A model generated the notes under the pieces. The model did not search any database. It was given only the letters and a program-made list of their open reading frames with translations, and was not told the origin of the DNA. Positions 2,959-31,698 of a stretch of DNA of 33,671 nt are shown piece after piece. Position numbers and translations under genes: made by a program. Numbering within the stretch: position 1 is the stretch's first letter; each line of letters opens with the position of its first letter. The stretch comes from a virus, in the IMG/VR virus record IMGVR_UViG_3300008266_000252, positions 1-33,671 of that record; one strand, 5' to 3'.

Positions 2959-3745
2959 GCCGCATCTCCTTAATTTCGTAGATCAACTGACTGTAAAAGT
3001 CTTCGTTCTGCAAATAGTTGTCGGTGCCTGGCAACTGCATCAACCCATCCATCCATGCGCGGATGACCAAGGGGTCTGGCAACTCCGCCTCCTCAAACCC
3101 CTTTGCCCGCAACACATTGGCATGGTTCATGTCCGTTGGTGGGTACTTGCCGTCATAAGATGTGTGGGTGTAAGCAAGAGCGGCGTAGCCTCCTGCCTCT
3201 CTCATCATCCTGATGCTGTCCGCTTTTGTGCTGTCAATCAACGGGGCGATAAGGTGCAGGTGAGCAATGCCCAGCGACTCGTTAGCCATTTGCTCGTACG
3301 AAAGTCTAAAATCGTCAGTGCAATCGGGGTAGTTCGCGTTGTCAGCTTGGCATATGCCAGTAACAAGGGTGAAGCAATCAGCAACAATGGCACGATTGGC
3401 AGCAACGGTAAAGAAGAGTGTATTTCGCATCGGTACGAAGGTGAGTTCCACCCGGTTGCCAATAATTTTGTCCATAGTTTCGTAGTCATCATATTGCTCC
3501 AAAAGTTGAGAAGAATCGGTCAGTGGTGAACGCCCTTTGAGGATGGGACCGAGTTCCACTACCTCATGGGATGCACAGCCAGCGATTCGGGCAACCTTGC
3601 GTGCTGCCTCTATCTCCAAACTGTGGCGTTGGTTGTAGTCAAAGGTGACAGCATGCACTTCCTTGTAGTTTTGCTTTGCAAGGAATAAGCAGGTTGTCGA
3701 ATCTTGTCCGCCAGACAAGATGACCATCGCTTTTTGTTTCAACAT
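2951..3745 (-). CDS. queC: 7-cyano-7-deazaguanine (preQ0) synthase, form lacking zinc cysteines
   Basis: QueC converts 7-carboxy-7-deazaguanine to preQ0 with ATP and ammonia. The ATP pyrophosphatase P-loop 'SGGQDS' is at residues 11-16, followed by '[11 protein letters not shown]' at 34-44 and 'FVPMRNTLF' at 103-111, all typical of QueC. The odd part is residues 193-213. In the usual enzyme four cysteines (one in SCY, three in CxxCxxC) bind zinc. Here the aligned positions are Ser196, Thr204, Asn207 and Asn210 with spacing kept, followed by the expected 'LRAKGFEEA' and 'DP'. I checked this on the DNA and it is not a frameshift. ATG at 3745 has AAAGGA upstream. It may belong to a zinc-free QueC branch; activity should be tested. 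Confidence 0.92.
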
Positions 3746-3749
3746 ATCT

Positions 3750-4205
3750 TCAGTTTCCTTTTCCTAAGTAAATTGCTGAATTCGCACCGTGTTCTCTCAC
3801 CTCTGCACTCACCACTCGGCAACGTGGCTCATACCCCGCCTCTCTCAACCACTCATAGGCCAAGCCGTAGGCAAACTCTGCAAACTTCTCACACCCAATC
3901 TCATCCATGACGATGATATCTGCAATGCCCCTTTTCTGAGCCTCCACATACCAATCCATATTGGGGTCATCTTTGGCAACCAGTGTCCGGTGGTCAAAGT
4001 AGTGCTCAAGCTTGGCACGCAACTTTTTCAAGCTACCAAAGTCAACCACCCAATGGTTCTCATCTAGCTCTGTTGCCTCAAACTCAAACTTAATGGACAA
4101 GGCGTAGCCATGCAGTTTGTTGCAATGGCTTTTCGCCCGCCATTGACGGAAACAAGCGCTGAGGCCAATCTCATGCCCGTAGGTCTTTGTGGATCTGAAA
4201 GTCAT
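3750..4205 (-). CDS. queD: 6-carboxy-tetrahydropterin synthase-like protein (QueD), divergent
   Basis: QueD turns dihydroneopterin triphosphate into 6-carboxy-5,6,7,8-tetrahydropterin. This 151-residue protein has the catalytic Cys28 and a zinc-type His32 in 'SHCNKLHGY', 'VVDFGSLK' at 53-60, 'FDHRTL' at 70-75 and '[13 protein letters not shown]' near the end with Glu138. It departs from the usual pattern. The first zinc histidine (the FxAAH motif) is replaced by 'GLSACFRQW', and the second histidine of HGH is Tyr34. I believe a phage and environmental branch with this FRQWRA pattern exists, but I cannot search. The start at 4205 gives an ATGA overlap with the queE stop; the longer reading from 4262 is less likely. 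Some members of this superfamily perform other pterin reactions, but the gene context favours QueD. Confidence 0.88.
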
Positions 4206-4906
4206 GGTAGTCCAATCATTTTGTGAAGTTGTAAAGTTAGGCGGTGCCCATGGGTCATGCAAAGGGCAGCCGCGTATTCAGTGTTCTCTTTCGTCTTATC
4301 CCAATCAACAGTTTTGTCTTCATGGTACTCCATCATCGGTTGCAACCACACAGTGCCTTTGCGTGCTCTGTAAAGCATCAACTCTTTGTGATCTTGTGTA
4401 GACATGTTGGGCAACCCATCTGCCTCACTGCATTCGCCTTTTCGCACAATGTACTTCCAATCAAAGCAGTAACGAACAAAGCCAGAATGGACAGTGCCCG
4501 TTTTTGGAGAACAGACAATGCTCACAAGTTTTGCCTCCACCAAGTCCTCCATCCCATCTTGCCACAAAGTGCCCGCTGTCTCAATCTGAATCTTCACATT
4601 GTTTGCCGCTATCAACACATTGCAAAGGTCGAGAAGGTTTTGACGGAAGGGCTCACCACCTGTGATGACCACGAGATCGCACTTGTAAGCGGCGCACGCC
4701 TCGGCAATTTCCTGCGCTGTCATGTAGGTAGTGGAACTCTCAAAATCGGTATCACAGAAGTGGCACCGGAGGTTGCAACCACCCAGTCGGACAAACACCG
4801 CTGGCATTCCCGCCAATGGTCCCTCTCCCTGAATGGTGTAGAAGATTTCTTGCACCCAGAAGGTGTCTTTAATCTCCCTTTTCATAATCTTATTCTTCCC
4901 GAACAT
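4202..4906 (-). CDS. queE: 7-carboxy-7-deazaguanine synthase, radical SAM enzyme
   Basis: QueE rearranges 6-carboxy-tetrahydropterin into 7-carboxy-7-deazaguanine (CDG) using S-adenosylmethionine and a 4Fe-4S cluster. The cluster ligands are Cys44, Cys48 and Cys51 in 'CNLRCHFC' (CX3CX2C). 'IQGEGPLAGMPAVFVRLGGCN' precedes it, the typical QueE substrate region, and the SAM-binding 'TGGEP' lies at 82-86. The length of 234 residues is normal. ATG at 4906 has AAAGGA upstream and overlaps the end of the small winged-helix gene by 17 bases; a second ATG at 4885 is also possible. The stop overlaps the queD start. This is the first que gene of the operon in transcription order. Confidence 0.95.
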   Translation of the reverse strand: MFGKNKIMKREIKDTFWVQEIFYTIQGEGPLAGMPAVFVRLGGCNLRCHFCDTDFESSTTYMTAQEIAEACAAYKCDLVVITGGEPFRQNLLDLCNVLIAANNVKIQIETAGTLWQDGMEDLVEAKLVSIVCSPKTGTVHSGFVRYCFDWKYIVRKGECSEADGLPNMSTQDHKELMLYRARKGTVWLQPMMEYHEDKTVDWDKTKENTEYAAALCMTHGHRLTLQLHKMIGLP

Positions 4907-13481: not shown

Positions 13482-16400
13482 TTAATGCAAATATGCGTTG
13501 TACCTATAAGCAAGGTTAGCGAGTTGAGGGTTTCTCAGCAATGGGCGTACCAAACCACCTCTTGCAAGTCCTTCTGGGTTTTGACGCAACTGCTCCTGTG
13601 CATCCCGCAACTCTTCAACCTTTATTTCAATCAAGTTCATCACTGCTCTTTCTTGGCCTTGCATTTGCGGGAATTGTGCCATGAAGTCATTGAAGAACAG
13701 TTGTGCCTGAGCCGGGTCGCGTAACTGAGCCAAATAGGTATTGTGCAAACGGTCAAGCAAGTCATTTTGCTCTGGTGTGGCATTTTGTCTTGCAGGAAGT
13801 GCAGGAGCGTTGGCTGGGTGTCCAGGATCTGGCTCAAACAAATTCAGGTCATCCACATTGATTTCTGCCGGTGGTGCAGGCAACTCGTTGTATCCTTCTG
13901 GAGGTATCCTTCCTTCCATAAAGTCCGGTATTGGATGACCTTGCTGTATTAGCCTTTGTGCCATCAACCACACAACTTCTCTTTGTGCTTGCAAATTTTC
14001 ATCTGCATTCATCCCATGTTCTCGAAAACCAGGATAATCAAGCTCTCCGTTAACCAAGGCGTACATAGTGTCGTGAACAGCGGTCAAGTTCATGCGACCA
14101 TCAGGATGCACATCTTGGGTCAACAAGTCATCTGCTGCTGTTTGAGGGTCAAAAGCAAACTGCTGCCCTGCTTCACGCTCATAGCGTTCAACATATTGCT
14201 CAAGTTCCGTTGCCAAATTAAACATGTCATTTTCGTTTTGACCCATTTCACGGTGCAAGTGTTGAACACCCCCGTTATTGCGCAAAGAATAAGCATAGTG
14301 CCTTAAAGAATCAGCATCAATTTGCCCAGTTTCAAGTCTAGTAGTTAAGTTGTCAAAACTTTGCTGGATGTCTTGAGGTTCAACGGGGTATGGGTTGTCT
14401 TGACCAACCATTTCTCTGGTTCGTGCATCCCTAATGGCATTTTCCATGTTTGCTAAAGCATCAGTCAACTTGTCTTGCAAGTGCAGGTAACCGTTCCGAG
14501 TCAAACCCATTTGAGTAGGTGTTCTGAAACCTTCATTCAATGCTTGTAAGTTTTTAAACGCCCCATCTTTTACTGCTTGATAGCGGGCTGTGTCTGTAGC
14601 GGCATTTCGGTATTCGTCAGAATTGCGAATGTCATCCCAGATGGAGGTCAGGTATTGTTGCGTTCGTTCTCCTGTGTCCATAGATGCCACAAACTGAGAA
14701 CTCATCCGCCTTTCACCAACTTCACCAACTGTTTCTTGTGGTGCATCATATGCCAATTGCCTTGTAACAGGTACATCTATAAACTCTGGAACCTTGATGT
14801 TTTCCCCTGCAGTAAATGCTTTTGCCACCAAATACCCCTCTGTTCTTGAAAGCGGTGCAATCAACGCACGAACTACTGGGTCATTTTCATACTTGTTGAT
14901 TATTCCCTGTATTGAGGTGTTGTTTCTGTAATCAGGTGAATCGTAAAACCGGGTGCCAGGAGGCGCATTTTGCAACCTGTCAAAATGCTCATGTATCTGG
15001 TCAAGCACATCTCTTGCCTTTCTTCGCATCTCTACAGAAGATGGTTCTGTCAACAAGCGTGATTTTTCCTCTGCCAAAGCAGCATGCAATTTTTCTAAGA
15101 CTTGATCCCTGATTTGATTAAACTTTGTTTGTTGAGCAACGCTTTGTTGAGGCAACACATCCATACCAGATACTTCAAACAATCTACCCGTACTGGTGTT
15201 GTTGGTTAGTCTGTCAATGACATTTTGCAAAGAATCAACATCTGGGTTGCCGTCATGCCCTTTTGCATAGTCTAACAATTTACCAGCAGCGTCATCAGTT
15301 GAAAAATCACGGATTCTTGACTCCACCCAAGCGTCTTTTACCTTGTCTGCATACTTACTAAAACTGTTTGCATCGTGTACATTCTTAAAACCCTCTTTTT
15401 GGTTGGTGTTAATTTGATAGGCGCGGTCGTATATGTCGCGAGCACGTTTAAGTTCTGAGTTTAATTCTTGCGGTGTCATTTGAGCAAGCTCAGCATCGGT
15501 TTTAAGTGGTGGTGCAAGTGTGGACATGGGCATACCGTATTGACGGGCAGCTTCCAGTACATCTTCCTCTCCAATAAACCGCTTATCACCCAGCCCACTG
15601 ATTAAAGCCTCATTGCGTCGGTTGCGGTAAATGTTCCACACCTTATCAATGTCTTTTGAAAGTTGATCGGTCAACTTTGCTGGGTCAAGCGCTGCCATGA
15701 AAGTGTTTTTGCTGTCATTACCAAGTGCCTCACCTACTACCTCATGTATCCAATCTTGGAAATCTTCACCCGGTGGGACAAGGTTGGGGTCACCCGCATT
15801 GTCTATATATGTGACTAGATCCATTTGCGCCTCACGCCGCGCTTCATCCGCTACCTCTGTCATCAAGTCATCTACTGCGTGGTGGTCAAACAGGGGGTTA
15901 AATTTGACAGCATCCCGTTGATGACTTTCCCCCAAGTCAACGGTGTTGGGAAGGTTGTGCTTGTCATTGACATTGCCGTCTAATTTGTCTTTGTTTTGAT
16001 TTAACCATGCGCGAATGGGTGCCTCAAACCTTGGGTCTATTCTACTGTTATTTTCACCCTTTATCTGATCTATTTTGTAGGTAGTCTTGTCGTCCATCAA
16101 TTTCTGAAGTTCAGGCATTTCAGCAACAGCAGTTCGCCAACCCATCCCTGTCTGTATAAACCTCTGCACCCCAACTGGCAAGGCATTAATTTGATTCATG
16201 CCGTTGTTTAAAAGATAGCGCTTTACGTCCTGCTGTATATCATCTGGGTTGGGGCTGTGTAGACGCACCTGCATTGCACCCTGCGCTGAGCCGTCAGGGG
16301 CGTAGACAGCAGGAAACATTTCTCGACCCGCCACTGCCTCATCAATGTAGCCAGAGGAGGTGGTGTCGTTGCCTCTTGGTACAAGACCTGTGTGCGGTTC

Positions 16401-18710
16401 AACCAAAGGGGCGTGGCCGGGATAATCAGGTGTACCGTGACCACCACGCGCAAGGCAGAAATTCAAGTCTTTGGTGAGAACTGAAAAATCTCGGATGTAC
16501 ATGTCAGGGTTAGCATCAATGAATGCTTTGTCAAACACCACTACCCTTGACCCTGCAGGTGTAATGCCAACCGGATTTGTAAAAACAACAGAAGCTGGGT
16601 ACTCTTGAACACGGTTGTAGCGCCAGTCACCGTATGCTTTCTTGCTGTTCTGCCTTGCTTTTTCTTCTGCCTTCTGCTGTTTGTGCGTCAAGTTAATGGC
16701 TGCAACCATGTCAACTTTTTTCAAGTCTTCTGGTGCAATTTCACCTTTCAACAGGCTTCTAAAAACATTTTTTCGCACATTTTCCAAGCCAAATTTATCT
16801 ACGTAGCGGTCATTTATGTCGTAGATCGGAACATCATCTGGAACTTTGGACATGTAAGGGTAGTCAGGACCTGTGTAGCCCTCATCCTTTAGCAACTCAT
16901 TGTGCCACGCTTGTGCATCTGCCTCATCTAGAAATGCAGAAGCTTTTACATCCGTTGAGTTATTCCCCCGCCTTGATACCCACCGTTGCCCGTAGCCCGG
17001 TACATTCTCTAACGCAATGCTTGGAGGTTCTTGTGCTCTAACCCTATCATCATCCCAGTGGCTAGAGGTAATGGAGGCGTCACTCATGTTTTCAACTTTT
17101 TGACCCAATGGGGTAGTTGCAGTTTGAGTACCGATTTCTGGATTCTTTGCCAAAGTGTCAGCAGAATGGGTACTGACGGCGTATTGACGTTCGTTTTCAC
17201 CCCTGTCTTGTGCCCGGCTGTAGTAGCTAGAATCCGTCACAAAATCACGGTCACCCACAAACACATCTTTTTCTGCCGCTTTGACAAATGGGTCGTTCTT
17301 GGTTCCAGTGCCCATTTGTTTGGTGATGTAGTTGAGGTAGGGGCCTTTGGTAATCCAGCCATAATAATCCTCAATTACCCTGCCCACATCCAAGGAAGAC
17401 CCCGGGATTTGTGCAAACGGTGAATCTGCGTGTTCTGCATTCCATTGCTTTGTAAATGCATCACTTGCTGAGTTAAGAATGACGTTTTTAACATCTTTGG
17501 GCAAGTCATAGAAGTCAATTTTAGCAGGCAAGCCAGGTGTGTTTTGTAACTTTTGCACTTCTGGCTGTTCAATAAGAGCTGGGTACTTTTGTATCCATTC
17601 TTCCAACGGTTTTGACTCGTTTTTTACCTCTTGTCCAAGAAACTCATCAAAAGCATTTCTCTGACCTGAGTCAAGTACATTCTGTTTCCATTCAATAAAA
17701 TGGGTTTTGCCAAGGCCTGGAATTTCACTGACGGGAGTGTAGTTGAGGTCAGGGGCAACTGAATGTAGGTGGCTGTATACAGGAGAGGTAGCAGAAAGTT
17801 CATCTATTGTCTTGGTTGCACCCAAGGTTGTTGGGAAATTGCCACCACTTGGTTTGACAGCAAAGCGGGCAACAGGAGTTTGGAACTCTTCTGGCAATCC
17901 AGGAACAAGTCCTTTGCCCTCCATAATGCGGTTTTGCACAACTTCAGCCGCACCTTTTACCGGTGCCTCTGTCACTTTAGCAATTTTGCTACCCACAGAT
18001 GGCTTGTTTGTTACTGGGTTCATCCTTGTGACACCAGACCGGTAATAGTTGCTAATGTCAGTTGGTATTTGTCTTGCCTCACTTGCGGCAAGTGATGCCT
18101 CACCCAACACAGCACGCGCATCATTAGGTGTAAGCAGAGGACGGCTAGTAGGAGGTGAAGGTGCAAACCCAGAACCCTTAGGACCAGAGGGCACTACTGG
18201 TATGTTTTCAGCCAAGAACTTCAATGCAGGTTCTTGAATTGCTTTCCCTGATGGACTTGTTGCCATTAAAGGCTTGTAGTATTTTTGCATCAGTGATGCA
18301 AATTCAGGTGACTTTTGTTGAGCAATTCGGGCAGCGTTTTCTTCATCACCTGCAAGCTCATACATCTTTTCTGCACCGTATCGCTGAGCAGCACCAAGCA
18401 CCATTTCACCTTGTGCAAGCGCCATAGGAACAGCGGCGGCGTATTGAGCGGTTGCAGGATGCACCATCAACCCAATTTTGCCTGCATCTCGAAGAGTGTC
18501 TCGTACCTCAAACCCTTTTTTGATGGCGTTGCCAACCATCTGCCTTGGTGACATATCACCAACCAATGGTCGGTTGTAGAAGTTGGGTGCTGGGTAGCGG
18601 GCAAGTAGCCTAGCAACCTCTGGGTCCATGGCAGGTTTAGGAGCGGGTGTGTTGTCACCCATGCCATCATCACCGGCATACGCCCCGTTTGCGTCAAAGA
18701 TGGCAGCCAT
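13482..18710 (-). CDS. Giant putative internal/ejected virion protein, 1742 residues
   Basis: This is the last gene of the late operon. It is largely hydrophilic, rich in Asn, Gln, Asp and Pro, with no clear signal peptide. A segment near residue 465 ('YLNYITKQMGTGTKNDPF') recalls a motif (NYI-x-MGT-x-DP) seen in very large phage virion proteins. Near residue 760 'LNFCLARGGHG' followed by 'SSGYIDEAVAG...MFPAVYAPDG' loosely resembles the HCV-GxY / SLRD pattern of PcfJ-like polyvalent protein domains. The extreme C-terminus has 'LARGGLVRP', a GG motif shared with neighbouring proteins. Size, position at the end of the tail genes and composition suggest a protein ejected with the DNA. No enzyme active site is certain. 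ATG at 18710 overlaps the preceding stop as TAATG. Confidence 0.75.
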   Translation of the reverse strand: MAAIFDANGAYAGDDGMGDNTPAPKPAMDPEVARLLARYPAPNFYNRPLVGDMSPRQMVGNAIKKGFEVRDTLRDAGKIGLMVHPATAQYAAAVPMALAQGEMVLGAAQRYGAEKMYELAGDEENAARIAQQKSPEFASLMQKYYKPLMATSPSGKAIQEPALKFLAENIPVVPSGPKGSGFAPSPPTSRPLLTPNDARAVLGEASLAASEARQIPTDISNYYRSGVTRMNPVTNKPSVGSKIAKVTEAPVKGAAEVVQNRIMEGKGLVPGLPEEFQTPVARFAVKPSGGNFPTTLGATKTIDELSATSPVYSHLHSVAPDLNYTPVSEIPGLGKTHFIEWKQNVLDSGQRNAFDEFLGQEVKNESKPLEEWIQKYPALIEQPEVQKLQNTPGLPAKIDFYDLPKDVKNVILNSASDAFTKQWNAEHADSPFAQIPGSSLDVGRVIEDYYGWITKGPYLNYITKQMGTGTKNDPFVKAAEKDVFVGDRDFVTDSSYYSRAQDRGENERQYAVSTHSADTLAKNPEIGTQTATTPLGQKVENMSDASITSSHWDDDRVRAQEPPSIALENVPGYGQRWVSRRGNNSTDVKASAFLDEADAQAWHNELLKDEGYTGPDYPYMSKVPDDVPIYDINDRYVDKFGLENVRKNVFRSLLKGEIAPEDLKKVDMVAAINLTHKQQKAEEKARQNSKKAYGDWRYNRVQEYPASVVFTNPVGITPAGSRVVVFDKAFIDANPDMYIRDFSVLTKDLNFCLARGGHGTPDYPGHAPLVEPHTGLVPRGNDTTSSGYIDEAVAGREMFPAVYAPDGSAQGAMQVRLHSPNPDDIQQDVKRYLLNNGMNQINALPVGVQRFIQTGMGWRTAVAEMPELQKLMDDKTTYKIDQIKGENNSRIDPRFEAPIRAWLNQNKDKLDGNVNDKHNLPNTVDLGESHQRDAVKFNPLFDHHAVDDLMTEVADEARREAQMDLVTYIDNAGDPNLVPPGEDFQDWIHEVVGEALGNDSKNTFMAALDPAKLTDQLSKDIDKVWNIYRNRRNEALISGLGDKRFIGEEDVLEAARQYGMPMSTLAPPLKTDAELAQMTPQELNSELKRARDIYDRAYQINTNQKEGFKNVHDANSFSKYADKVKDAWVESRIRDFSTDDAAGKLLDYAKGHDGNPDVDSLQNVIDRLTNNTSTGRLFEVSGMDVLPQQSVAQQTKFNQIRDQVLEKLHAALAEEKSRLLTEPSSVEMRRKARDVLDQIHEHFDRLQNAPPGTRFYDSPDYRNNTSIQGIINKYENDPVVRALIAPLSRTEGYLVAKAFTAGENIKVPEFIDVPVTRQLAYDAPQETVGEVGERRMSSQFVASMDTGERTQQYLTSIWDDIRNSDEYRNAATDTARYQAVKDGAFKNLQALNEGFRTPTQMGLTRNGYLHLQDKLTDALANMENAIRDARTREMVGQDNPYPVEPQDIQQSFDNLTTRLETGQIDADSLRHYAYSLRNNGGVQHLHREMGQNENDMFNLATELEQYVERYEREAGQQFAFDPQTAADDLLTQDVHPDGRMNLTAVHDTMYALVNGELDYPGFREHGMNADENLQAQREVVWLMAQRLIQQGHPIPDFMEGRIPPEGYNELPAPPAEINVDDLNLFEPDPGHPANAPALPARQNATPEQNDLLDRLHNTYLAQLRDPAQAQLFFNDFMAQFPQMQGQERAVMNLIEIKVEELRDAQEQLRQNPEGLARGGLVRPLLRNPQLANLAYRYNAYLH

Positions 18711-19134: not shown

Positions 19135-22100
19135 TTACTCCTCTGTTGCGTATTTCTTTTTCAGATCTTCAAATGTAGCATCCTCCTCCGCCATCCGCTC
19201 TTCTACCGATGGTTTTGGGGCTTCTGGCAATGTAGGTGTTGCACCAGCGGACACACTCATAGCACTTGTTGTTTGTTTCTCCCGCTTGGCGACTTTCTGC
19301 GCCTGTTGTGCCTTCTTTTTAACCTGCGCCTCCAACTTTGCAGTCACCTTCTGCACATCCCGCGGGCTGCCTGTTTTCAATATCTGCGCCACCTCATTGG
19401 CAACCTTTTCACTCATTGGCAGGCCTTGTTGGTAGATTTTGAAGACTTTGGCAAGAAAGGAACCAGGACCACTTGAGGCACTCAGGTCAAGCACTTGCCC
19501 GGTAATGTCAACAACTGGATTCTCATCCAAGTCTTTCAAAGCAGCGGCACGGGGTGCGGTGCGGCTGTTGCGCGCAATGTCTTGTGCGTTGCGGAACAGT
19601 TGTGCCTCCCGTTCCAACGCTGCTTCAAACAGTTTGTAGTCATTGGGGTTGTCAAACAAGGCAGCCAAGCGGGCCTTGGTTGCGGGTGCTGAGATGACGA
19701 TTTGAGCTGCATTGATTTGTTGAGGGCGAGTCATAATGTCGTTGAGAATACTTTGTGCTACACCAGCACGAAGAGCATTCTTTTCTGCTTCTGACATAGT
19801 TTTGACCATTGCTTTTGCCTGATCTGGCATAAAGCCTTTCTTCAAAAAGTCATCCTTACCAAACCGCAACGCCTCCAACACCTCTATGTCTCCTGCATAC
19901 TTGGCGCGTGCCTCTGCATACTTGGAAACTCCTGTCGCTGGGTCCTTGGTCACATTGTCAATCACATTGACAAACTCTTTCTTCACATCTTTAAGTGCAT
20001 TGGCCTCAGTTTTAGACAATGGGTTGGTGCCCCCAAACCCTTTATCAATGATTGAGTCAATGCCCCTCTTGATGTAGTCAAGGGTGCGGACATCAGGCAT
20101 CTGAGTCACACGAACAGTGCCATCTGAGTCAACAGTGTAGAGGCGTTTGAGGTCAAAGCGGCTAGTGTCTGTTTCACCTCTCAACTGCGCTGCCAACTTC
20201 TCTTTTTCAGCAATAGACCTTGCCTCCTCATACGCCTTTTTGAAGGTAGGATCTTCAAGCACTTTTGTGATTCTTGGGTCGTTTACTGTGCCAAAGGCGT
20301 AGGCGTCTTTGTAGGCAGTATCTGCATTGCCACGCAAGGTGCTTATTAGCTTGCCTTCCTGATCTGCGTAATTCACATTTTTGCCCACAGCCTTTGTGAC
20401 CTTGTCACCCACACTTTGACGCCCAGCTTCCAGGCGTTTTTCCATGACGTCACCCAAAATCTTTTTGCCACCACCTGGTTTAGTCACAACCGCCTCCCCT
20501 AGGCTAGTGAGTGATGGGGTGACATCTGCAATGGTTGACTTGACATTTAAAGCGGCATCCTGTGCCATGGTGCGTTTGAGTGAACGCATGCCAACTGAAT
20601 CACGGTTCATTGCGTTGAGCACTTTGTTGATAGCGGCAGTGCTCACATCTGCATCTGTTGGAAAGATTGCTTTTTTGACTGCCTTCAATCCTTGACCACC
20701 TTTGGTAATCAGTTTAGAAACAGTGGGGGCAACTACAGCAGTTGTTGTTCCGGTTGTAACGCCTTCAGACAGGCGATCGCCCATGTCTCCCTCACTCGCC
20801 CCCATGCCAGATACGAATCCTTGTGCGCCTGCGCTTCCTGAGGTTTTTGCGAGGTCGTACAGTTGTTTGCCACGCCCAACAGTCATGCCCAAGCCAGTTG
20901 CGGCAGGTGCTTGACCACCTGGAACCATGCTCATTGCTATGGAAGGTGCAAGACCACTGACCAACTCTGTGCCCAAGGCGGTGTAGGGATGTTTGCTTGC
21001 AAATGCTGCATACTTGGCTCGTTCCTCTGCCAACACTTCCTCATACGGCCTGTTTTCCATCTGCGCACGCACACGCGCAATTGCCTCATCACCAAATGAA
21101 AACCCAGCTCCCTGTCCAACTGCCCGACCAAAGTTAGCCAATGAGTAGTCAGCATCTTCCTCTGTTGGGACATAGGGCGGTGTGCCACCTTCTTGCATCC
21201 GCACAGCACCCCCATCTGCAAAATTCATGTTGTAGTTGGCGTTGTACTGCGTTGGTCCTTGCGTTGGCTTACTGACACCGAAGTTGAAGGTGCCAGAGCC
21301 AACGGGACGGTTGTAGTTGAGGAAGCGGGCGTCTACTTGGTTTTTGTTTGCAGGCAAATAGCGGGATGCTGCTACTCCTGCACTCACATTACCTCTTCCT
21401 ACTGGATAGGATGCTTGCAGGTCAACCAAGCGAACAGGAACATCAACAGGTTGAGCAACAGTACCTGCTACCTGCCCCCGGCCTACAGGAACAGAATAGC
21501 GGGCAGCCAAAGAAGCAAAGTTCTGAGGGCTCGCATCAGGTGTTCTGCTCACATGCCCCTCAACTGAGGCGTACCCAGGGCCTACCTTGCGCCCCGCACC
21601 CACCATGGCAGATTCCTGTCTGCCTTGAGGACCGTAGTTGACATTGGCACCGTACAGTTTTTGGTACAGTTGTTCATCATCCAACTGCATGTCGCCACCA
21701 TCTGCCATTCTGACAGGCCCACCATCTGCAAAGTCTTCGGTCTGTGCTTTGTGCATAGAACCAGACTTTGTTTCCTTGATGATGTCTTCGTTCTCTTTTA
21801 TCTTTCTAATAGCCGCGGCCATTGCGTTTTCAAAAAGAATTTTTCGCTCACCGGCACTCATGCTCAGTGCGCCTTCAAGGTCCAGTAAGATCTGTCGTTC
21901 ACCCTCTGTTGGGTTGCCGCCAAAAATAATCTTCAACTGGCTCAGTGCATTTTTGCCCATGAGGTTTTCAAGCTCTGTCGTTGCTCTCACCCCTTCTGAG
22001 TCACCAACGATGGGTAAGTTTCTGCCAATAGAACGGCGGGCGCTTGCACCAAAACCCTCATACGCTTTTTCATTGATTTCTAGCGCTTTGACTATGTTGG

Positions 22101-23214
22101 TAACCAGTGCCTTACCTGCACTAATTGCCTCTTGCGCCTTGCGAATGGCCGCACGGTCATCTGTAGAAAGTTTGACCTCTGACCGTTCTTTTTGCAACGC
22201 TTTAACACGCGCATTGAATTCAGGAGTTCCTGGTGTTAAACCTTCATCCTGCGCTACTTTGCCTAAAGGTGAAACGGCTATACCACTACCCTTACCACCT
22301 GCACCATCTTTGGTAGGTGCAATATAGGTGGATTTTCTGATAATTGCCTGCGCCCGGGCAAGATCGGCTTTAGGCGTTGAGCCAGGTGCTGCTGACTCAG
22401 CCAGCAGTGTTTTGTTTGCCCACTGTTCAAGAGACAAGTTCTCAGGAGGTTTGTCTACAGGTGCAATGTAGTTGAGTTTCTTAAGGCGTGCAGTTGCATT
22501 GTCTTTGGCAGTTTGGGTTGAAGTAGGATCGTCAAGAATGGCTGTTAGACGGTCAATTTCAAACTTAGGTCCAGCGGCGGGCTTATCAGCTGGGACAAAA
22601 GTCAGCCTCTTCATCCTCGCCTCAAGCATTGTTTTGTCAGCTGCGTAGGTAGGTGACTTGGGGTCAAGGCCTTGCAATTGACGCATCAAAGTTTGATACT
22701 CAGATGTCTTGCCCTGTGTCAGTTGCGACAGCTTGGTGACTACACCAATTTTGTCGCTGAGGTCACTTACATCTTGATCTAGCCCTGTTTGTTTATACTT
22801 CAACTGCAAGTCAGTCAGTGCATCTTTCCGTGCCTGCATTCTTTCAACTTCTGGTGCAAGAGCCTCACCCACATTGCCCAGTGTCTCACCAAAAGAACCC
22901 GTTTTAGTTGGTTTGCCAAAAGCCCCCGCTACTTTAAAGAGCATGGCGGCTTGCCCCAATGGGTCCTCAGCCCGTGCAAGCAGCTTTTGTTGCGCCTCAG
23001 CAAGAATGGCTGTGCGTTCTTTTGAACGCTTAGTCAACGCACCCTGGTACTGCGTCAGCAGCCCCTTTAACTCTTTGCTGTAAGGGCTTGTAGAGTCGAG
23101 TACAGAGGGGGTGTCGACTGTTTCAGAATCAAGCGCGGCTTGATCTTTTGCATCAACTTCCTCAAGCTGCTCTACATTGGTGATTACTTCTGCGTCATCT
23201 TCTGGCGTTGCCAT
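19135..23214 (-). CDS. Large putative internal virion protein with ADGG motifs, 1359 residues
   Basis: The N-terminal third is acidic and helical with long coiled-coil stretches ('QLKYKQTGLDQDVSDLSDKIGVV'). Around residues 490-504 is 'FADGGPVRMADGG' and around 663-676 'FADGGAVRMQEGG', two copies of a motif also present in neighbouring virion proteins. Between them is a repetitive segment built of 'YSVPVGRG', 'YPVGRG', 'YNRPVGSG' and similar units, like a beta-repeat or surface loop array. After residue 700 an Ala/Gly-rich region ('GQGAGFSFGDEAIARVRAQM') resembles internal virion proteins thought to cross membranes. The C-terminus is charged. It was probably packaged and ejected with the DNA; no lytic or other catalytic motif is certain. 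AAGGGG precedes the ATG. Confidence 0.75.
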   Translation of the reverse strand: MATPEDDAEVITNVEQLEEVDAKDQAALDSETVDTPSVLDSTSPYSKELKGLLTQYQGALTKRSKERTAILAEAQQKLLARAEDPLGQAAMLFKVAGAFGKPTKTGSFGETLGNVGEALAPEVERMQARKDALTDLQLKYKQTGLDQDVSDLSDKIGVVTKLSQLTQGKTSEYQTLMRQLQGLDPKSPTYAADKTMLEARMKRLTFVPADKPAAGPKFEIDRLTAILDDPTSTQTAKDNATARLKKLNYIAPVDKPPENLSLEQWANKTLLAESAAPGSTPKADLARAQAIIRKSTYIAPTKDGAGGKGSGIAVSPLGKVAQDEGLTPGTPEFNARVKALQKERSEVKLSTDDRAAIRKAQEAISAGKALVTNIVKALEINEKAYEGFGASARRSIGRNLPIVGDSEGVRATTELENLMGKNALSQLKIIFGGNPTEGERQILLDLEGALSMSAGERKILFENAMAAAIRKIKENEDIIKETKSGSMHKAQTEDFADGGPVRMADGGDMQLDDEQLYQKLYGANVNYGPQGRQESAMVGAGRKVGPGYASVEGHVSRTPDASPQNFASLAARYSVPVGRGQVAGTVAQPVDVPVRLVDLQASYPVGRGNVSAGVAASRYLPANKNQVDARFLNYNRPVGSGTFNFGVSKPTQGPTQYNANYNMNFADGGAVRMQEGGTPPYVPTEEDADYSLANFGRAVGQGAGFSFGDEAIARVRAQMENRPYEEVLAEERAKYAAFASKHPYTALGTELVSGLAPSIAMSMVPGGQAPAATGLGMTVGRGKQLYDLAKTSGSAGAQGFVSGMGASEGDMGDRLSEGVTTGTTTAVVAPTVSKLITKGGQGLKAVKKAIFPTDADVSTAAINKVLNAMNRDSVGMRSLKRTMAQDAALNVKSTIADVTPSLTSLGEAVVTKPGGGKKILGDVMEKRLEAGRQSVGDKVTKAVGKNVNYADQEGKLISTLRGNADTAYKDAYAFGTVNDPRITKVLEDPTFKKAYEEARSIAEKEKLAAQLRGETDTSRFDLKRLYTVDSDGTVRVTQMPDVRTLDYIKRGIDSIIDKGFGGTNPLSKTEANALKDVKKEFVNVIDNVTKDPATGVSKYAEARAKYAGDIEVLEALRFGKDDFLKKGFMPDQAKAMVKTMSEAEKNALRAGVAQSILNDIMTRPQQINAAQIVISAPATKARLAALFDNPNDYKLFEAALEREAQLFRNAQDIARNSRTAPRAAALKDLDENPVVDITGQVLDLSASSGPGSFLAKVFKIYQQGLPMSEKVANEVAQILKTGSPRDVQKVTAKLEAQVKKKAQQAQKVAKREKQTTSAMSVSAGATPTLPEAPKPSVEERMAEEDATFEDLKKKYATEE

Positions 23215-23224
23215 ACCTTACCCC

Positions 23225-24217
23225 TTAAATGAGTCCTGCTTTTTTCATTGCCAAACCAGTTGCACCAGCAGATGCCAGTTGCGACAAAACAGATGGCTGG
23301 TAGACATTGGCTGGGCCTGTCGATTCTGTTGTAGTGCGTGAAGGCAACTCCAACCCACGAACAGCGGCATTCATAAAGGCAATGCGGTTGTAGGGGTCAT
23401 CGCGTTGACGTTGGAAGTCTTGATAGGCAAGGTCTAAGCTTCGCTGGTTCAACGCCTGTTCTTGCTGACCAATGGATTCTACTGCCGCGGCACCTGTGAG
23501 GCCCAGTTGTTGTTCCAAGCCACCCAAGGTGGCTTGTTGTTTAGACAGTTCAAGCATGCGGTTAAGGTCTGCCGCTTGCAAGGTGCCTGCAGACTGACCC
23601 ATTTGAGCAAGTCGGGTTTGGTCTTGACCAAACTGTTGCCCCGCCTGTGTGTAACCTTGTTGCAATGCCTGCGCTTGTTGAGCCATTGTGGACTCCTGCA
23701 AGTCACGCATCCCGCGGGACAGTGCTTCACCAGATCGGCTACCCCCAAAACTACCCCCACCAATAAACTGGTTTTGAATGGTTGGGATGATGTTTTCTGA
23801 CAACTGCCGCTTTGCCAAGTCACCAATCCTGTTGACCACAGAATCAGTATACGGGTTCATGTATTCACCAATGCCTTGGGGCAAGGTTTTGGCGGCTTGT
23901 GAAAAATAGGGATTAGCGGCAGCAAGGCCTGTGGTGCTACCAGCAGCATCACTGTACATTTGTGCCCCTTGCATGTACGGTTGATAGGAGCTTGCTGCTG
24001 TTTTTGCCATGTCGTAGGCAGTCTTTTGCGTGGGGCTTGTTCCTGCAACTCGGGGGCCTTGGTAAGACTGGTAAGGTGAGGCAGCAATGGCGTTGGCCTT
24101 TGCCACCAGCCCTTGCGTGTAATCACTGTACCAAGCCGGTGTGTCCTTAGCCGCTACCCCGTAAGTGGTAACTGATGCAGGAGGCGCACCGTTGAAAAGA
24201 AAGTCTGTAACGCTCAT
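23225..24217 (-). CDS. Conserved virion protein, Gln/Ala-rich, 330 residues
   Basis: The segment 'MNPYTDSVVNRIGDLAKRQL' followed by 'FIGGGSFGGSRSGEALSRG' and a long Gln/Ala-rich helical region ('QQAQALQQGYTQAGQQF') is typical of a conserved podovirus virion protein found just before large internal proteins. Family knowledge is limited to probable structural or DNA-injection roles. The start at 24217 overlaps the upstream stop (ATGA). There is no membrane segment; the glycine cluster near residue 152 may be a hinge. Confidence 0.78.
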   Translation of the reverse strand: MSVTDFLFNGAPPASVTTYGVAAKDTPAWYSDYTQGLVAKANAIAASPYQSYQGPRVAGTSPTQKTAYDMAKTAASSYQPYMQGAQMYSDAAGSTTGLAAANPYFSQAAKTLPQGIGEYMNPYTDSVVNRIGDLAKRQLSENIIPTIQNQFIGGGSFGGSRSGEALSRGMRDLQESTMAQQAQALQQGYTQAGQQFGQDQTRLAQMGQSAGTLQAADLNRMLELSKQQATLGGLEQQLGLTGAAAVESIGQQEQALNQRSLDLAYQDFQRQRDDPYNRIAFMNAAVRGLELPSRTTTESTGPANVYQPSVLSQLASAGATGLAMKKAGLI

Positions 24218-26079
24218 GCCATACTCCTACTCAAATAAGCAAGTGGGGATTGTGCATCTGGCGAAATCTTGCCTTTTGACAACGCCCCACCTTTTTGTTT
24301 TCTGATCGCCTCACGCATGTGGTCCAACCGCTTGGCGCCAGCATCATTGTTCCCATTGCCAAGCAAGGCAACTGTTTCTGCATCCATCACATACTCCCCT
24401 TGCGAGAGCATGGCAGGAATATCATCTGTTCTACCATCTGGCACGTTGCCCCCGTGTGCCATTGCCAACCCACCTGTTGCTCTGTTTTGCAACGGTTGTT
24501 GTACAGGTTGCATGGGTGAGGTCACACTGGGTGGTATTTGCCCGTAGCTGAAATAGCGGTAAGCAGGATTTTGTTGTTGCGGTGCTACTTGTTGTGGCAC
24601 GTTGCGGCTTTGCATTTGTTGAGGAGAAGCAGATGCAAGAGGCGAAGGTTTAGCACCCATTGCACTTACTTGCGACAAAGCACCCATGGGTTGTTGTTGC
24701 ACAGGTGCAGGTGCCATCATAGGTCCAACTGCTGGGCTTTGATACTGTTGCTGCTGCATAGGACCGACAGGCGGCATACCCACCTGCCCACCATCTGCGT
24801 AGCTTACAGGAACATACACCGGGCTGCTCAAAAACTGATGCTCGCCACCGGTTTGCCCGTACCTATAAATATCGTCTTTATACGGGTCGTAGTTTTGAAC
24901 CATGCTCAATTGTTGCAACGGTTGGTAGAAGCGTGAATCGCCCACTTGACCATCTGAGCCACCACCACCGCCATCATCCTTTGGCTTGTCTTTGCCGTAA
25001 GAATTCGCAAGCAACAACCCACCGCCTATAAGATATTTGTTGTCTAGTGCAAAGTCAAGGGCACTATTTCCAGCCGCTTTTGTGTAGTCCCATGTTTGCC
25101 CAGCGGTGGGTGTGCTGCCTTCCATAGGACCAGCAACTGTGCTTTTGTCAACAACTTCAGGAAGACCGGGCTCTCCTTTTTCTATCAACACTCGCATGTT
25201 GGGGTCATTAGGATAATCGGTGTGTGGCCCAAACCTATCAGGTGTGCCGGTCGCTGGCTGACTTCCAGAACCTGGCACATAAGGCTTTTCAGCGCCTAGG
25301 TTTGTAAATTCAGATCTGTACACACTTCCTGCAGGGCTTTGTCCAGCAGCATTTCCTGTGTAACTACTTGCATCTGTTCGAAGTTCAGGTGCCGAAATAG
25401 GTGCTGGGTTGGGGTCAAGCCCCGACATTTCCAAGCTCAATGCAGATGGCGCTTTTGGTGCAAAAGGGTTTTGTACTTTCGTGGCGTCTAGGTAAGAAGT
25501 AGCGCTACTGTCTACTAAGTCAGCAGGGCGCACTGTTTCAAGAATTGTTGCGCCACTGCCGTCAAAGGCCGGTGTGTTGCTGCTAAAACTATTTTGGTCA
25601 ATGCCTGTGTAGTTACTGGTATTGTTTATGCCACTAGCGTCAATAGAGGCACCGCTAGCATCAATGGTTGCACCACTGCCATCAATGGCTGGCGCACTGC
25701 CCTCTCCTGGTATTGCACCTGAGCCAGAAACGAATTTACTCTTAACATAGTTTCCAGCCGCTGTAAATGCTGCCGCTTTAGCACCGCTTTTTACAGCATC
25801 ATTAAAATTATCTCCTTGCGCCAATCTTGACCCAGTAGTTGCTATACCTACAGCCGCCGCTGAACCCGCCCCTGCAAACGATAGCCCCGGTATCCCGTAT
25901 GAATACGCTACCGCTGATGCTATAAAAGTTAACGGGTCATTTTTAATGGGCTGAATAATTGCAATGTCGACTGTCTTGCCAATGTCGTTGAGAACTTTAC
26001 CTGGGTCGGTGACAATTTCTTTTGCTGTTTTGACCGTGGTGCCAATTGGGTCTCGAATAAAGTCTTTAAACCATCCCAT
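24214..26079 (-). CDS. Virion protein with Ser/Ala repeats and conserved C-terminal DDIPAMLSQGEYVM domain
   Basis: The 621-residue product opens with 'MGWFKDFIRDPIGTTVKTAKEIVTDPGKVL' and a hydrophobic Ala/Gly-rich stretch (residues 50-85) of the type seen in phage injection proteins. Residues 129-149 hold a heptad-like repeat (IDASGAS). A Gln/Pro-rich linker contains 'YADGGQVGM'. The last 80 residues contain 'GLAMAHGGNVPDGRTDDIPAML', 'GEYVMDAETVALLGNG' and 'GAKRLDHM', a C-terminal module I recall from many phage tape-measure and internal proteins. Role inferred: virion, probably ejected. ATG at 26079 has AGGAG upstream. Confidence 0.78.
   Translation of the reverse strand: MGWFKDFIRDPIGTTVKTAKEIVTDPGKVLNDIGKTVDIAIIQPIKNDPLTFIASAVAYSYGIPGLSFAGAGSAAAVGIATTGSRLAQGDNFNDAVKSGAKAAAFTAAGNYVKSKFVSGSGAIPGEGSAPAIDGSGATIDASGASIDASGINNTSNYTGIDQNSFSSNTPAFDGSGATILETVRPADLVDSSATSYLDATKVQNPFAPKAPSALSLEMSGLDPNPAPISAPELRTDASSYTGNAAGQSPAGSVYRSEFTNLGAEKPYVPGSGSQPATGTPDRFGPHTDYPNDPNMRVLIEKGEPGLPEVVDKSTVAGPMEGSTPTAGQTWDYTKAAGNSALDFALDNKYLIGGGLLLANSYGKDKPKDDGGGGGSDGQVGDSRFYQPLQQLSMVQNYDPYKDDIYRYGQTGGEHQFLSSPVYVPVSYADGGQVGMPPVGPMQQQQYQSPAVGPMMAPAPVQQQPMGALSQVSAMGAKPSPLASASPQQMQSRNVPQQVAPQQQNPAYRYFSYGQIPPSVTSPMQPVQQPLQNRATGGLAMAHGGNVPDGRTDDIPAMLSQGEYVMDAETVALLGNGNNDAGAKRLDHMREAIRKQKGGALSKGKISPDAQSPLAYLSRSMA
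25631..25693. repeat. Three imperfect 21-bp tandem repeats inside the 621-residue virion gene
   Basis: Units start at 25631, 25652 and 25673 and share the pattern CC(A/G)CT-x-x-C(G/A)TCAAT. They encode seven-residue units of the form I-D-(A/G)-S-G-A-(T/S). A further degenerate copy lies near 25553-25573. The period is a whole number of codons, so copy number can change without breaking the frame. Confidence 0.65.
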
Positions 26080-26080
26080 A

Positions 26081-26527
26081 TTATGCTCCTAATCCCAAGC
26101 CGGGCTGAGATGCACCAAGTTGCACACCAATAACTGTCATGCCTTCACCACCATCCGCTGTTTTGATGGTGTATTTTTGTGCTAGGCTTTGCAAGGCAGA
26201 AAGAATAACTGGGTCACTTGTTGTTATCTGCATCTGTTTCCACCCCTTTTTCATTGCGTTGTCAAACAACTGCATAAAGTTGGTAGGCACATTGGGTGTG
26301 GCATCTGCGTTAATCACCACAACTTTTGCAATGCTTGGGTCACGGGGTGAAACCAAGCAAATGAAAATGGTGTTGCCGTAGCGCAGAAAAGTGCTCTCAG
26401 GCATGGTTGCAAGTTTGGCAAAGGCGGCCTTGGACATTTCCAAAGGCACCTGTTCCCCGCCCTGCTGTGCATCAGCTTCCAGTATCTGATCCACCTCTAG
26501 CATCTGTTGTTTACTATCTACTTGCAT
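26081..26527 (-). CDS. Virion-module protein of unknown function, 148 residues
   Basis: The N-terminus is acidic and helical ('QQMLEVDQILEADAQQGGEQV'); the rest alternates strands and helices ('FLRYGNTIFICLVSPRDPSIAKVVVINAD', 'GWKQMQITTSDPVILSALQSL'). The layout loosely recalls small acetyltransferase-fold proteins in podovirus tail operons, but no acetyl-CoA-binding motif can be pointed to. ATG at 26527 has AAGGTGAG upstream. It lies between a 75-residue gene and the 621-residue virion gene, so a structural or chaperone role is likely. Confidence 0.75.
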   Translation of the reverse strand: MQVDSKQQMLEVDQILEADAQQGGEQVPLEMSKAAFAKLATMPESTFLRYGNTIFICLVSPRDPSIAKVVVINADATPNVPTNFMQLFDNAMKKGWKQMQITTSDPVILSALQSLAQKYTIKTADGGEGMTVIGVQLGASQPGLGLGA

Positions 26528-29521: not shown

Positions 29522-30175
29522 TTATACCTCTTGTCTTGAAGACGAACGGTCAATGACCTTCTTGTCGTCCTCTTGGCTAAGTGCGCTAGCAGCCATTTGA
29601 TAGAATTGTTGCCACACAGGAATACGCTCATCATTTTTCAAATACGGTGTTGCCTCAAGCAAAGTACCGTACAACAAAACATTGGGTGCAAATTCTGTCA
29701 GCCAGTTGGTTTGACTCTCATCATCAAGCAGGGCTGGCAACTCGTAGTACACAATTTCAACAGGGTAAGCGGTGTCAGGAGTAGGCGCAAAGAGCCAATG
29801 CTTGTAGTCGTAATCTGTGTAAAAAACAGGGGTTTCTGTTTGAGTTTGGTCAGGCCAGTAAGACCTGCAATACTCATATGAACGACCGTAAATGGTGGTG
29901 CGGGAGTTGCTCCCCCCGCCTGTACCAATGTTTATTGACACCGTTTCCCGCCACCTATCTGGCTTTGCCATCACTGCCACATTTGCCTGCATAGTGGTTG
30001 TGACTACAGTTTGAAAACCTTGAATCTTCAGGTCACGCGAAATGCGCCGTTCTGCAAGGTTGATAAGTTTGGGAATCTGTGCGTAGACAAGGGGGTCAGT
30101 AGCGGCGGAAGCTCCCCGCTCCAAGTAACTGCGAACATCGTCTTTTAAAGACGAAAAGGTCATTGCCTGAGGCAT
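29522..30175 (-). CDS. Head-tail adaptor protein, SU10/P22 gp4 type
   Basis: This 217-residue protein opens 'MTFSSLKDDVRSYLERG' followed by 'IPKLINLAERRISRDLKIQGFQ', the helical start typical of SU10-type adaptors that bind the portal ring. A beta core follows ('RWRETVSINIG', 'YRSYWPD'-like segment, 'PVEIVYYELPALLDD') and a helical end containing 'LLYGTLLEATPYLKNDERIPVWQQFY', also typical. The stop-start overlap with the endolysin gene is TAATG, with AAGGAA upstream. This is the best anchor for the podovirus-like assignment. Confidence 0.85.
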   Translation of the reverse strand: MPQAMTFSSLKDDVRSYLERGASAATDPLVYAQIPKLINLAERRISRDLKIQGFQTVVTTTMQANVAVMAKPDRWRETVSINIGTGGGSNSRTTIYGRSYEYCRSYWPDQTQTETPVFYTDYDYKHWLFAPTPDTAYPVEIVYYELPALLDDESQTNWLTEFAPNVLLYGTLLEATPYLKNDERIPVWQQFYQMAASALSQEDDKKVIDRSSSRQEV

Positions 30176-30513
30176 TACACATTCCTTTCAAAATGCGGGC
30201 AATCTACCAATGATTTGAAGTTGCCACCCCAACGGTTTTTGGTGTTCAACGACTCCCAATATGCGCCCAAAGGCGAAAGAGTTGCTTTGTCCCAAATTAT
30301 ACGCCCATTTTGAAAAAAATTCAAGTCAATGGCGCATCTTTTCAAATGAATAGAATTCATAGTTTTGGAACGCCCCGTCTTAAAGTAGATGGCCTGCTGT
30401 TCTGGTGTACGGGCAAGTTCACCGCCGGTAACTTTAAACCCCTGTTCTGTTGCGTACTGAATTAGTTTGCAGGCATCCAACAGGAATGCTGCTTGTTCGT
30501 TAGATAGGCTCAT
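30175..30513 (-). CDS. M15-family peptidase endolysin
   Basis: This 112-residue enzyme cleaves peptide bonds in peptidoglycan. Zinc ligands are recognisable as His56 and Asp63 in 'SIHLKRCAIDLNFF' and His107 in 'DCPHFE'. 'RTPEQQAIYFKTGRSKT' before them is the usual M15 (VanY / T5-type endolysin) pattern. It is a single catalytic domain without a cell-wall-binding module, as expected of a phage of Gram-negative bacteria. ATG at 30513 overlaps the holin stop (ATGA), so holin and endolysin are coupled. Confidence 0.92.
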   Translation of the reverse strand: MSLSNEQAAFLLDACKLIQYATEQGFKVTGGELARTPEQQAIYFKTGRSKTMNSIHLKRCAIDLNFFQNGRIIWDKATLSPLGAYWESLNTKNRWGGNFKSLVDCPHFERNV

Positions 30514-31019
30514 TTTTTCCTCATGTCAGCAAGTTTTTCAATTGTTCTGCCGCCAAAGTACGCCCCCATAATGAGCATCCCCCAATTTCCAAGCAGGGTC
30601 ACATAGGATTCATTGGCGTTGTACCCATACGCACTCATCATGGCAAACAAGAAGTAACCTAAAAAGATGGCTATAAGGGACATGGGGCGTATGTTTTTGG
30701 ACAACCATGAATCACTGCTCATATCGGCTTGCCAGCGGTCGGTCACATTGTCTGCGTCACTCTGGGCAGCTTTTGCCAACAAGTCAAGTTCAGCCAATTC
30801 CATTTTGGCTTTTTCAATGCCCAATTCTAGCAATCGCTCTTCATGCTCAAATTGAAGCTGGCGTAGCTTGCTGACATCTTCAGGTGTGGGTGCATCAGGA
30901 ATCTTTACGCCAAGGGTGTTCTCAACCACTTGCTTGCCCTTGGCTTGAATAGCTGATGACAAAAGACCCAAGCCGTTTTCAGCAAGGGTTCCTAGTAAAG
31001 ATGCAACTATTGGAATCAT
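30510..31019 (-). CDS. Holin, GTA-type with C-terminal membrane segments
   Basis: The 169-residue product has an amphipathic N-terminus (1-25), a long charged helix (45-90) and the motif 'DRWQADMSSDSWLSKNIRPM' just before two hydrophobic segments at about 111-131 and 137-157. This D-x-W-L-S-K-N-x-R-P pattern is common in phage holins of the GTA_holin_3TM group. It would form membrane lesions releasing the M15 endolysin. The start overlaps the previous stop (ATGA). The topology with its large cytosolic part is family-typical. Confidence 0.8.
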   Translation of the reverse strand: MIPIVASLLGTLAENGLGLLSSAIQAKGKQVVENTLGVKIPDAPTPEDVSKLRQLQFEHEERLLELGIEKAKMELAELDLLAKAAQSDADNVTDRWQADMSSDSWLSKNIRPMSLIAIFLGYFLFAMMSAYGYNANESYVTLLGNWGMLIMGAYFGGRTIEKLADMRKK

Positions 31020-31213
31020 TGTTTTTCCTTTTTCTCTAAATCTTTCACCAATTTTTCAATTCTTGCCTCTGTTTTCTCTGTCTTCTTTTGCAAGGTCAAA
31101 GTGTCAAAGTAGAGCATTGCCATCAACGGAATCACTAGACAAACAAAAAGCATCAACAGCACTGCAACAACTACGGCCCCCGATTCAGATGGATGACGTA
31201 CATCAAGCCCCAT
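31016..31213 (-). CDS. Small single-pass membrane protein of the lysis cassette
   Basis: From ATG 31213 the product has 65 residues: a short N-terminus 'MGLDVRHPSES', a membrane segment (about 12-36) and a highly charged coiled-coil tail ('KKTEKTEARIEKLVKDLEKKEK'). This is the size and layout of a small spanin or holin-accessory protein. A longer start at 31294 (92 residues) overlaps the upstream gene by 124 bases and adds a low-information N-terminus, so I prefer 31213 (43-base overlap). Neither start has a strong Shine-Dalgarno site. The stop overlaps the holin start (ATGA), supporting the gene. Confidence 0.62.
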   Translation of the reverse strand: MGLDVRHPSESGAVVVAVLLMLFVCLVIPLMAMLYFDTLTLQKKTEKTEARIEKLVKDLEKKEKQ

Positions 31214-31698
31214 ATTTCTAAAATTACCACCAACACCGCTCCCAAGATCAAAGCGTCGTTTTGTAACCTGTCGATCCTTTGTTGACGTTGCCATTTTCTT
31301 TTCCGTTCTGCCACTACCTCTTGTTTGATCTCTTCGTCATGCTTTTTTGCAAGCCTTTTAAATTCCGCCTCATACCTTGACCAAACTGCACCCAGCGCCG
31401 GGTCTGTGTGGTAAATCAAAAATTCTCTCAACTCAACTGCCTGCCGCTCAAGTTCGATTTGGTTAAACACGTTTTCAAGAGCCTGAGCCTTGAGCGATTT
31501 TTCTTTTGGCGGGTCTAGTTCATTTCGTTTGACTTCCTTTTTTACTTCCTCATGCGCCTCAAAGAACTGCCCAATGAACCCTGATATCTCCTTGGTTACT
31601 TTGTAGAGGTCAGAGCCTGTGGCTTTGGCATCTTTGTACAGTGCAATCCCTTGCTTGATACCAGCAATGGCGGTAAGGGCAAGGGTAATCGGTTCAAT
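31171..31698 (-). CDS. Conserved phage membrane-anchored protein with no canonical start codon
   Basis: Open coding sequence runs from 31698 to 31171 (about 175 residues). It starts 'EPITLALTAIAGIKQGIALY', continues 'GSDLYKVTKEISGFIGQFFEAHEEVKKE', has a long charged helix and ends with a membrane segment ('ALILGAVLVVILEIWGLMYVI'). I recall phage proteins beginning M-x-P-I-T-L-A-L, so the N-terminal part is real. Yet no ATG, GTG or TTG occurs in frame before GTG at 31470. Candidates are ATT at 31698 (AGG eight bases upstream) or a +1 frameshift at the TGA (31702-31700) of the preceding gene, like the prfB site. Function unknown, probably membrane or lysis linked. Confidence 0.65.
   Translation of the reverse strand: MEPITLALTAIAGIKQGIALYKDAKATGSDLYKVTKEISGFIGQFFEAHEEVKKEVKRNELDPPKEKSLKAQALENVFNQIELERQAVELREFLIYHTDPALGAVWSRYEAEFKRLAKKHDEEIKQEVVAERKRKWQRQQRIDRLQNDALILGAVLVVILEIWGLMYVIHLNRGP

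Follow-up and report, generated by a model that had tools for sequence, protein, structure and literature searches.

Three large proteins encoded close together in one virus carry copies of the same short glycine motif, and the question raised by this locus is what such a motif does there. The virus is IMG/VR record IMGVR_UViG_3300008266_000252, whose 33,671 bases make up the whole stretch of DNA that was analyzed (here called the window), and the proteins belong to a four-gene block on the minus strand with products of 621, 330, 1359, and 1742 amino acids (aa). Our tentative answer, which we hold with somewhat less than even confidence, is that the motif, an eight-residue unit or octad, may be a portable and mostly disordered address or docking element of proteins that are carried in the virion and ejected from it.

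Copies of the motif in the window

By motif search, the 1359-aa protein contains two motif pairs, FADGGPVRMADGG at residues 495–507 (21694..21732, minus strand) and FADGGAVRMQEGG at residues 665–677 (21184..21222, minus strand). The 621-aa protein contains the site YADGGQVGM at residues 427–435 (24775..24801, minus strand) and the pair RATGGLAMAHGG at residues 533–544 (24448..24483, minus strand), and in the 1742-aa protein ARGGLVRP occupies residues 1716–1723, 19 residues short of the C-terminus. Most copies come in pairs with a spacing of eight residues (seven in RATGGLAMAHGG), and the same search found no copy in the 330-aa protein. The original prediction, made from the letters of the window, was that a motif of this kind recurs in these three proteins; this is confirmed, with positions that were correct to about 5 residues. 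Its pattern occurs five times in 35 open reading frames (ORFs), all five in the 621-, 1359-, and 1742-aa proteins, and in 1000 within-protein shuffles of the four-protein block it occurred 0.17 times on average and never reached five. Background frequency had been set beforehand as a check, and the motif lies above it both in these shuffles and among viral contigs, where the controls are rarer (below). Two weak look-alikes lie outside the block, ATGGTML in the ORF at 759–1697 and ADGGEGM in a 148-aa ORF at 26081–26527.

Form and distribution of the motif in viral contigs

When a collection of viral contigs was scanned with back-translated patterns, A[DENK]GGx[VIM]xMxxGG was found in at least 120 stretches, compared with 10 for a reversed-order control and 33 for a control in which [DENK] and the following Gly were exchanged (both control scans were finished). 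A stricter earlier pattern, FADGGxV[R/S]M, gave 15 stretches vs. four for its reversal, all four in one gene. Among the matches listed there are 118 loci with 123 paired sites, 99 of which lie in ORFs of at least 150 aa. At positions that the pattern leaves free, M, K, F, or Y is frequent before Ala, and 25 of 50 sites have a further Ala at +8, a sign of an eight-residue tandem unit. As read from these sites, the motif unit is the octad [M/F/Y/K]-A-[D/E/K/N]-G-G-x-[V/I]-x, single or in tandem. Its flanks are variable, and the synonymous codons of its fixed residues vary, so it is the peptide and not the DNA that is conserved. Outside the ascertained pair, motif proteins have 0.69 core motifs per 1000 aa, their neighbors 0.17, and permuted orders 0–0.06. 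Shuffling gave a mean of 9 vs. 88 observed in motif proteins and a mean of 21 vs. 68 observed in neighbors, so the neighboring proteins are somewhat enriched too.

These numbers bear on the idea that the octad is a flexible linker, with domains joined preferentially by a glycine-rich hinge that nothing recognizes specifically. Its variable flanks would suit a linker, as would the position of sites at domain seams and of one site in a stretch where the AlphaFold2 (AF2) predicted local distance difference test score (pLDDT) is below 50 (both below). The motif is nevertheless order-specific, reversed or swapped versions of the same residues being much rarer, and a plain linker needs neither the fixed Ala, the V/I at +5, and the hydrophobic residue before Ala nor the eight-residue period. 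We consider a linker rather unlikely.

Short ORFs (about 95–200 aa) rich in tandem MAKGGxVK octads are present at five of the loci (L027, L038, L082, L114, and L116); they possibly encode small internal virion proteins.

Proteins that carry the octad

Non-overlapping ORFs of at least 150 aa were called in the loci from the matches listed, which gave 91 motif ORFs in 49 BLAST clusters (E ≤ 1e-10, half coverage). With the cutoff relaxed to E ≤ 1e-4 and no coverage requirement, octad proteins join into 29 components, so to speak of 49 unrelated families would be too strong; on either count the motif is present in many groups without a mutual BLAST match, which agrees with its predicted occurrence in non-homologous proteins. 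Tape measure proteins account for nine of the 25 listed PHROG families (38 in all) that are matched by representatives of the motif clusters, vs. none of the 25 listed (70 in all) for neighboring non-motif proteins, sampled as 49 random clusters of 196. The predicted link to virion-type proteins is in this respect upheld in relatives. Endolysin, ParB-like, and acetyltransferase PHROGs are also among the listed matches of the motif clusters.

A hook-like module described below accompanies the motif in 11 of the 49 motif clusters vs. two of the 196 neighbor clusters (Fisher p = 4e-7), an association that is partly circular because the module profile was built from hits in those loci. The octads could be relics of one ancestral tape measure or ejection module, spread by recombination and with no present role of their own. 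The joining of octad proteins under looser linking and the recurrence of the module beside the motif (49 segments in the motif loci) would fit such descent, but 38 of the 49 motif clusters lack the module, and the persistence of the motif where adjoining sequence has been lost or has diverged, together with its diverse codons, points to selection. An inherited remnant of this kind seems to us improbable.

Seam and cassette in the 1359-residue protein

The 1359-aa protein (19135..23214, minus strand) matches two genes of Rhizobium phage RHph_I1_23, which are adjacent and separate there and correspond to its residues 321–439 and 694–1329. Both motif pairs are located between these two halves, and so is a 157-aa cassette (residues 508–664; 21223..21693, minus strand) that separates FADGGPVRMADGG from FADGGAVRMQEGG. 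Comparison of homologues shows that the cassette is kept in L002–L004 and missing in L005 and L006, which are ∼50% identical and still carry NADGGPVGSYAKGGIVHMEEGG at the seam.

This arrangement brings in a second alternative, that the octad is a processing site at which a phage or host protease recognizes the GG motif and cuts large virion polyproteins before or during ejection. Motif pairs that fall exactly between halves encoded by separate genes in RHph_I1_23, and a seam motif that is retained where the cassette is absent, are what such a site might look like, and cleavage has precedents: the tape measure proteins of both lambda and T5 undergo it (PMC10038345), cleavage of that of JBD30 is proposed near its hook (PMC11445458), P22 gp20 may need host cleavage (PMC8954989), and "likely processing" has been proposed for polyvalent proteins (PMC5512222). 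On the other hand, the T5 site known from the first of these accounts follows Arg1127 and is not GG (PMC10038345), no HExxH-type motif was found in the 28 window ORFs scanned, and the motif is also present at extreme C-termini, as in the tail of the 1742-aa protein, where a cut would free a short peptide only. On balance we regard processing as unlikely.

The cassette itself has VGxG repeats at residues 537, 543, 576, 604, and 637 and is possibly rich in beta-hairpins. A beta-barrel, considered on account of these repeats, found no support (AF2 mean pLDDT 29, no PHROG match, and E = 2 for the best of six phage matches).

The 621-residue protein and its hook-like module

The 621-aa protein (24214..26079, minus strand), which has a hook-like module at its C-terminal end besides its two motif sites, is classed as a tape-measure-like or ejection protein by its PHROG tape measure matches and its homologues (L002, L005, and L006). 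The whole protein matches tape measure phrog_6090 (E = 5e-4), and its C-terminal 98 aa match 12 PHROG families (E ≤ 10), nine of them tape measure (best E = 1.7e-5). Its second motif site runs directly into the module, DDIPAMLSQGEYV..., at residues 545–600 (24280..24447, minus strand), which is common to tape measure proteins according to profile, PHROG, and PDB-sequence searches and was also modeled with AF2. At E ≤ 1 the module profile matches 458 of the 50,697 phage records searched, and among the best 60 of the 458 most are named tape measure. Two PDB tape measure chains are matched as well, Douge gp16 (8zdo, two stretches) and the 1158-aa chain of 8rk3, which from its length is taken to be JBD30 gp46.

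Residues 545–600 map to 994–1056 of 8rk3 and so overlap the predicted hook at 1022–1066. In JBD30, residues 930–1021 are predicted to be unstructured, and the predicted hook consists of two helices plus a short hairpin; it may serve as the baseplate anchor of the chain, and a cleavage site is proposed at 1066 (PMC11445458). Only the last 33 C-terminal residues of the JBD30 protein are assigned, modeled as a coiled coil (PMC11445458), and only residues 1658–1699 of the Douge tape measure protein (PMC13033339); these lie outside the module, so neither structure shows it. In an AF2 model of residues 510–621 (a 112-aa segment, 31 sequences), segment positions 1–38, which contain the motif and the first module residues, have pLDDT below 50 and are followed by confident helices, at 58–64 and 69–92, with no strand called. 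Foldseek found no match to this hook model in the PDB. An unstructured stretch precedes the module in both the 621-aa protein and JBD30 gp46, whose hook is likened to T5 pb2* in its paper (PMC11445458).

The element DD[I/V]PAxLxxGEFV is also found near the N-terminus of gp49 of phages HMO-2011 and CRP-1, which shows that a C-terminal position is not obligatory for the module. In these two proteins (L199 38772–41060 and L202 42142–44289, respectively) it reads DD[I/V]PAxLSEGEFV and lies near residue 40, and both are encoded between a portal-type gene and the coat gene.

The C-terminal tail of the 1742-residue protein

The 1742-aa protein (13482..18710, minus strand) is encoded by the last gene of the block and has no PHROG, Pfam, NCBIfam, or PDB-sequence match. 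Alignment of relatives and motif search define a motif-bearing C-terminal tail, LARGGLVRPLLRNPQLANLAYRYNAYLH (13485..13568, minus strand). The L004 homologue matches residues 1–287 and 1712–1742 (E = 2.5e-5), with a weak match at 1526–1569 (E = 3e-4); in blocks of 100 residues its identity is 64, 50, and 36% in the first three and then 13–29%, rising to 42% over the final 42 residues. Six tail sequences all share A-GG-V and LA---Y-Y (L204 is the same virus again, with 99.8% DNA identity, and adds nothing). The conserved tail has a parallel in T7 gp16, the last five residues of which are needed for infectivity (PMC8954989).

Isolates, cellular genomes, and the literature

Five isolated phages were selected for their matches to motif proteins or to the module, and are not a random sample; per 50-kb stretch they have 5 (Puniceispirillum phage HMO-2011), 5 (Pelagibacter phage HTVC027P), 8 (DSL-LC04), 3 (CRP-1), and 3 (GB2A) octads, with shuffle means of 1.1–1.7 and maxima of 3–7. 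The good-looking octads are mostly in late-gene proteins, and that of GB2A is in a helicase. The paired motif with [F/Y] has 40 matches in the GTDB collection. Read by eye from their flanks, 21 belong to one FLKWYADGGM-type family, mostly from Paenibacillus and relatives, which we take to be a sugar-binding protein, and five (L156, L157, L159, L171, and L184) are phage-like. F or Y precedes Ala in 28 of the 123 viral-contig sites among the matches listed; the two collections differ in size, and their rates are not comparable. No description of the motif was found in the open-licence PMC literature searched, where motif and module peptide strings matched unrelated papers only, and it looks like a so far uncatalogued address, docking, or processing tag.

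Weighing a possible address or docking element

An address or docking element would be expected to stay conserved amid fused, inserted, and diverged surroundings, as the octad does in virion-type proteins. Under this mechanism, one virion partner (the portal or core, the tail lumen, or a scaffold) would bind all octad-bearing proteins, thereby packaging them, keeping them on the exit path, and setting the order of their ejection. The motif of the 621-aa protein leads into the hook-like module, the JBD30 counterpart of which has been proposed to fix the chain within the baseplate. In a broader form of the idea, which we think doubtful, the A-x-GG-x-V octad serves many environmental phages as a portable code that tells one common virion component to "ship and eject me"; the proteins bearing it would be otherwise unrelated, and their cargo domains could change by swapping, insertion, or fusion without loss of the address.

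Variable motif positions are shared among the proteins of one locus above expectation (47 pairs, equaled in 0 of 500 permutations, vs. 377 of 500 for the flanks), a coherence that is no more than suggestive; the test excluded octads ≤8 residues from the ORF start or ≤20 from its end and those outside the stated residue classes. Several observations weigh against an address. The coherence drops to 37 of 500 after reduction to 11 independent loci, and the D/E/K position has none (108 of 500). Motif proteins are mostly unannotated, so the apparent virion link rests on a minority of them, and 24 of the 123 paired sites among the matches listed are in ORFs shorter than 150 aa whose kind is unassigned. 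Pam5_12 and the two RHph_I1_23 homologues have no motif, and these protein families therefore work without it. Finally, the octad totals of CRP-1 and GB2A are within the shuffle range.

The gene block and other window genes

Between the genes of the 621- and 1359-aa proteins lies that of the motif-free 330-aa protein (23225..24217, minus strand), which has a DNA ejection family match. Upstream of the block is a 543-aa protein with a virion structural family match and, further upstream, an SU10-type adaptor; an SNF2-like helicase gene follows the block. A comparable gene order is found in the lake phage DSL-LC04 ("stabilization protein," "tail tape measure protein," two more genes, "DNA transfer protein," and a helicase), and BLAST matches it to the 621-, 330-, 543-, and 505-aa proteins of the window and to neither the 1359- nor the 1742-aa protein. 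The four-gene block resembles tape measure and DNA ejection genes and, from its ejection-type neighbors, looks podovirus-like, so that one would not expect the long tail whose length a tape measure protein sets. That its proteins are ejected is suggested by their family resemblance and by gene order.

Elsewhere in the window, deazaguanine pathway genes (FolE, QueC, QueD-like, and QueE-like; 2401–4906, minus strand) suggest modified guanine in the phage DNA, and likely lysis genes are present at 30175–31294 (minus strand), namely an M15-type peptidase and weak matches to a 3TM holin and to SieB.

Comparison with known systems and significance

Phage T4 has a capsid targeting sequence, a short peptide common to several internal head proteins that directs them into the head; it is N-terminal and is removed by the prohead protease. 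The octad is like it in idea only, since the sequences differ and the window octads are internal or C-terminal.

The compact block of large virion genes is like T7 genes 14–16 (gp14–16) and P22 gp7/16/20, and, to judge by gene order and the family match of the 330-aa protein, products of the block may be packaged in the head and ejected with the DNA as podovirus ejection proteins are. The context differs from that of the JBD30 hook, as the window block looks podovirus-like, with ejection-type neighbors. None of the window proteins was seen to match a T7 or P22 protein in sequence, and the octad is not described in the parts of a podovirus ejection-protein account drawn on here (PMC8954989). 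Polyvalent proteins are very large; their genes lie close to virion genes, and packaging and injection of the proteins have been inferred (PMC5512222). The endolysin, ParB-like, and acetyltransferase matches of motif proteins recall them, but PHROG, Pfam, and NCBIfam searches found no enzymatic domain, let alone the several distinct ones per chain of a polyvalent protein, in the 621-, 1359-, and 1742-aa proteins, and the words "tape measure" and "glycine" are absent from that paper's text (PMC5512222).

How phages choose the proteins that they load and eject is an open question outside a few model phages. At the level of sequence, the 621-aa protein also connects the tape measure hook with a protein of ejection type. 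If the octad is indeed an address, it would help to predict which functionally unassigned phage proteins are delivered into hosts, and it would be an obvious candidate tag for cargo loading.

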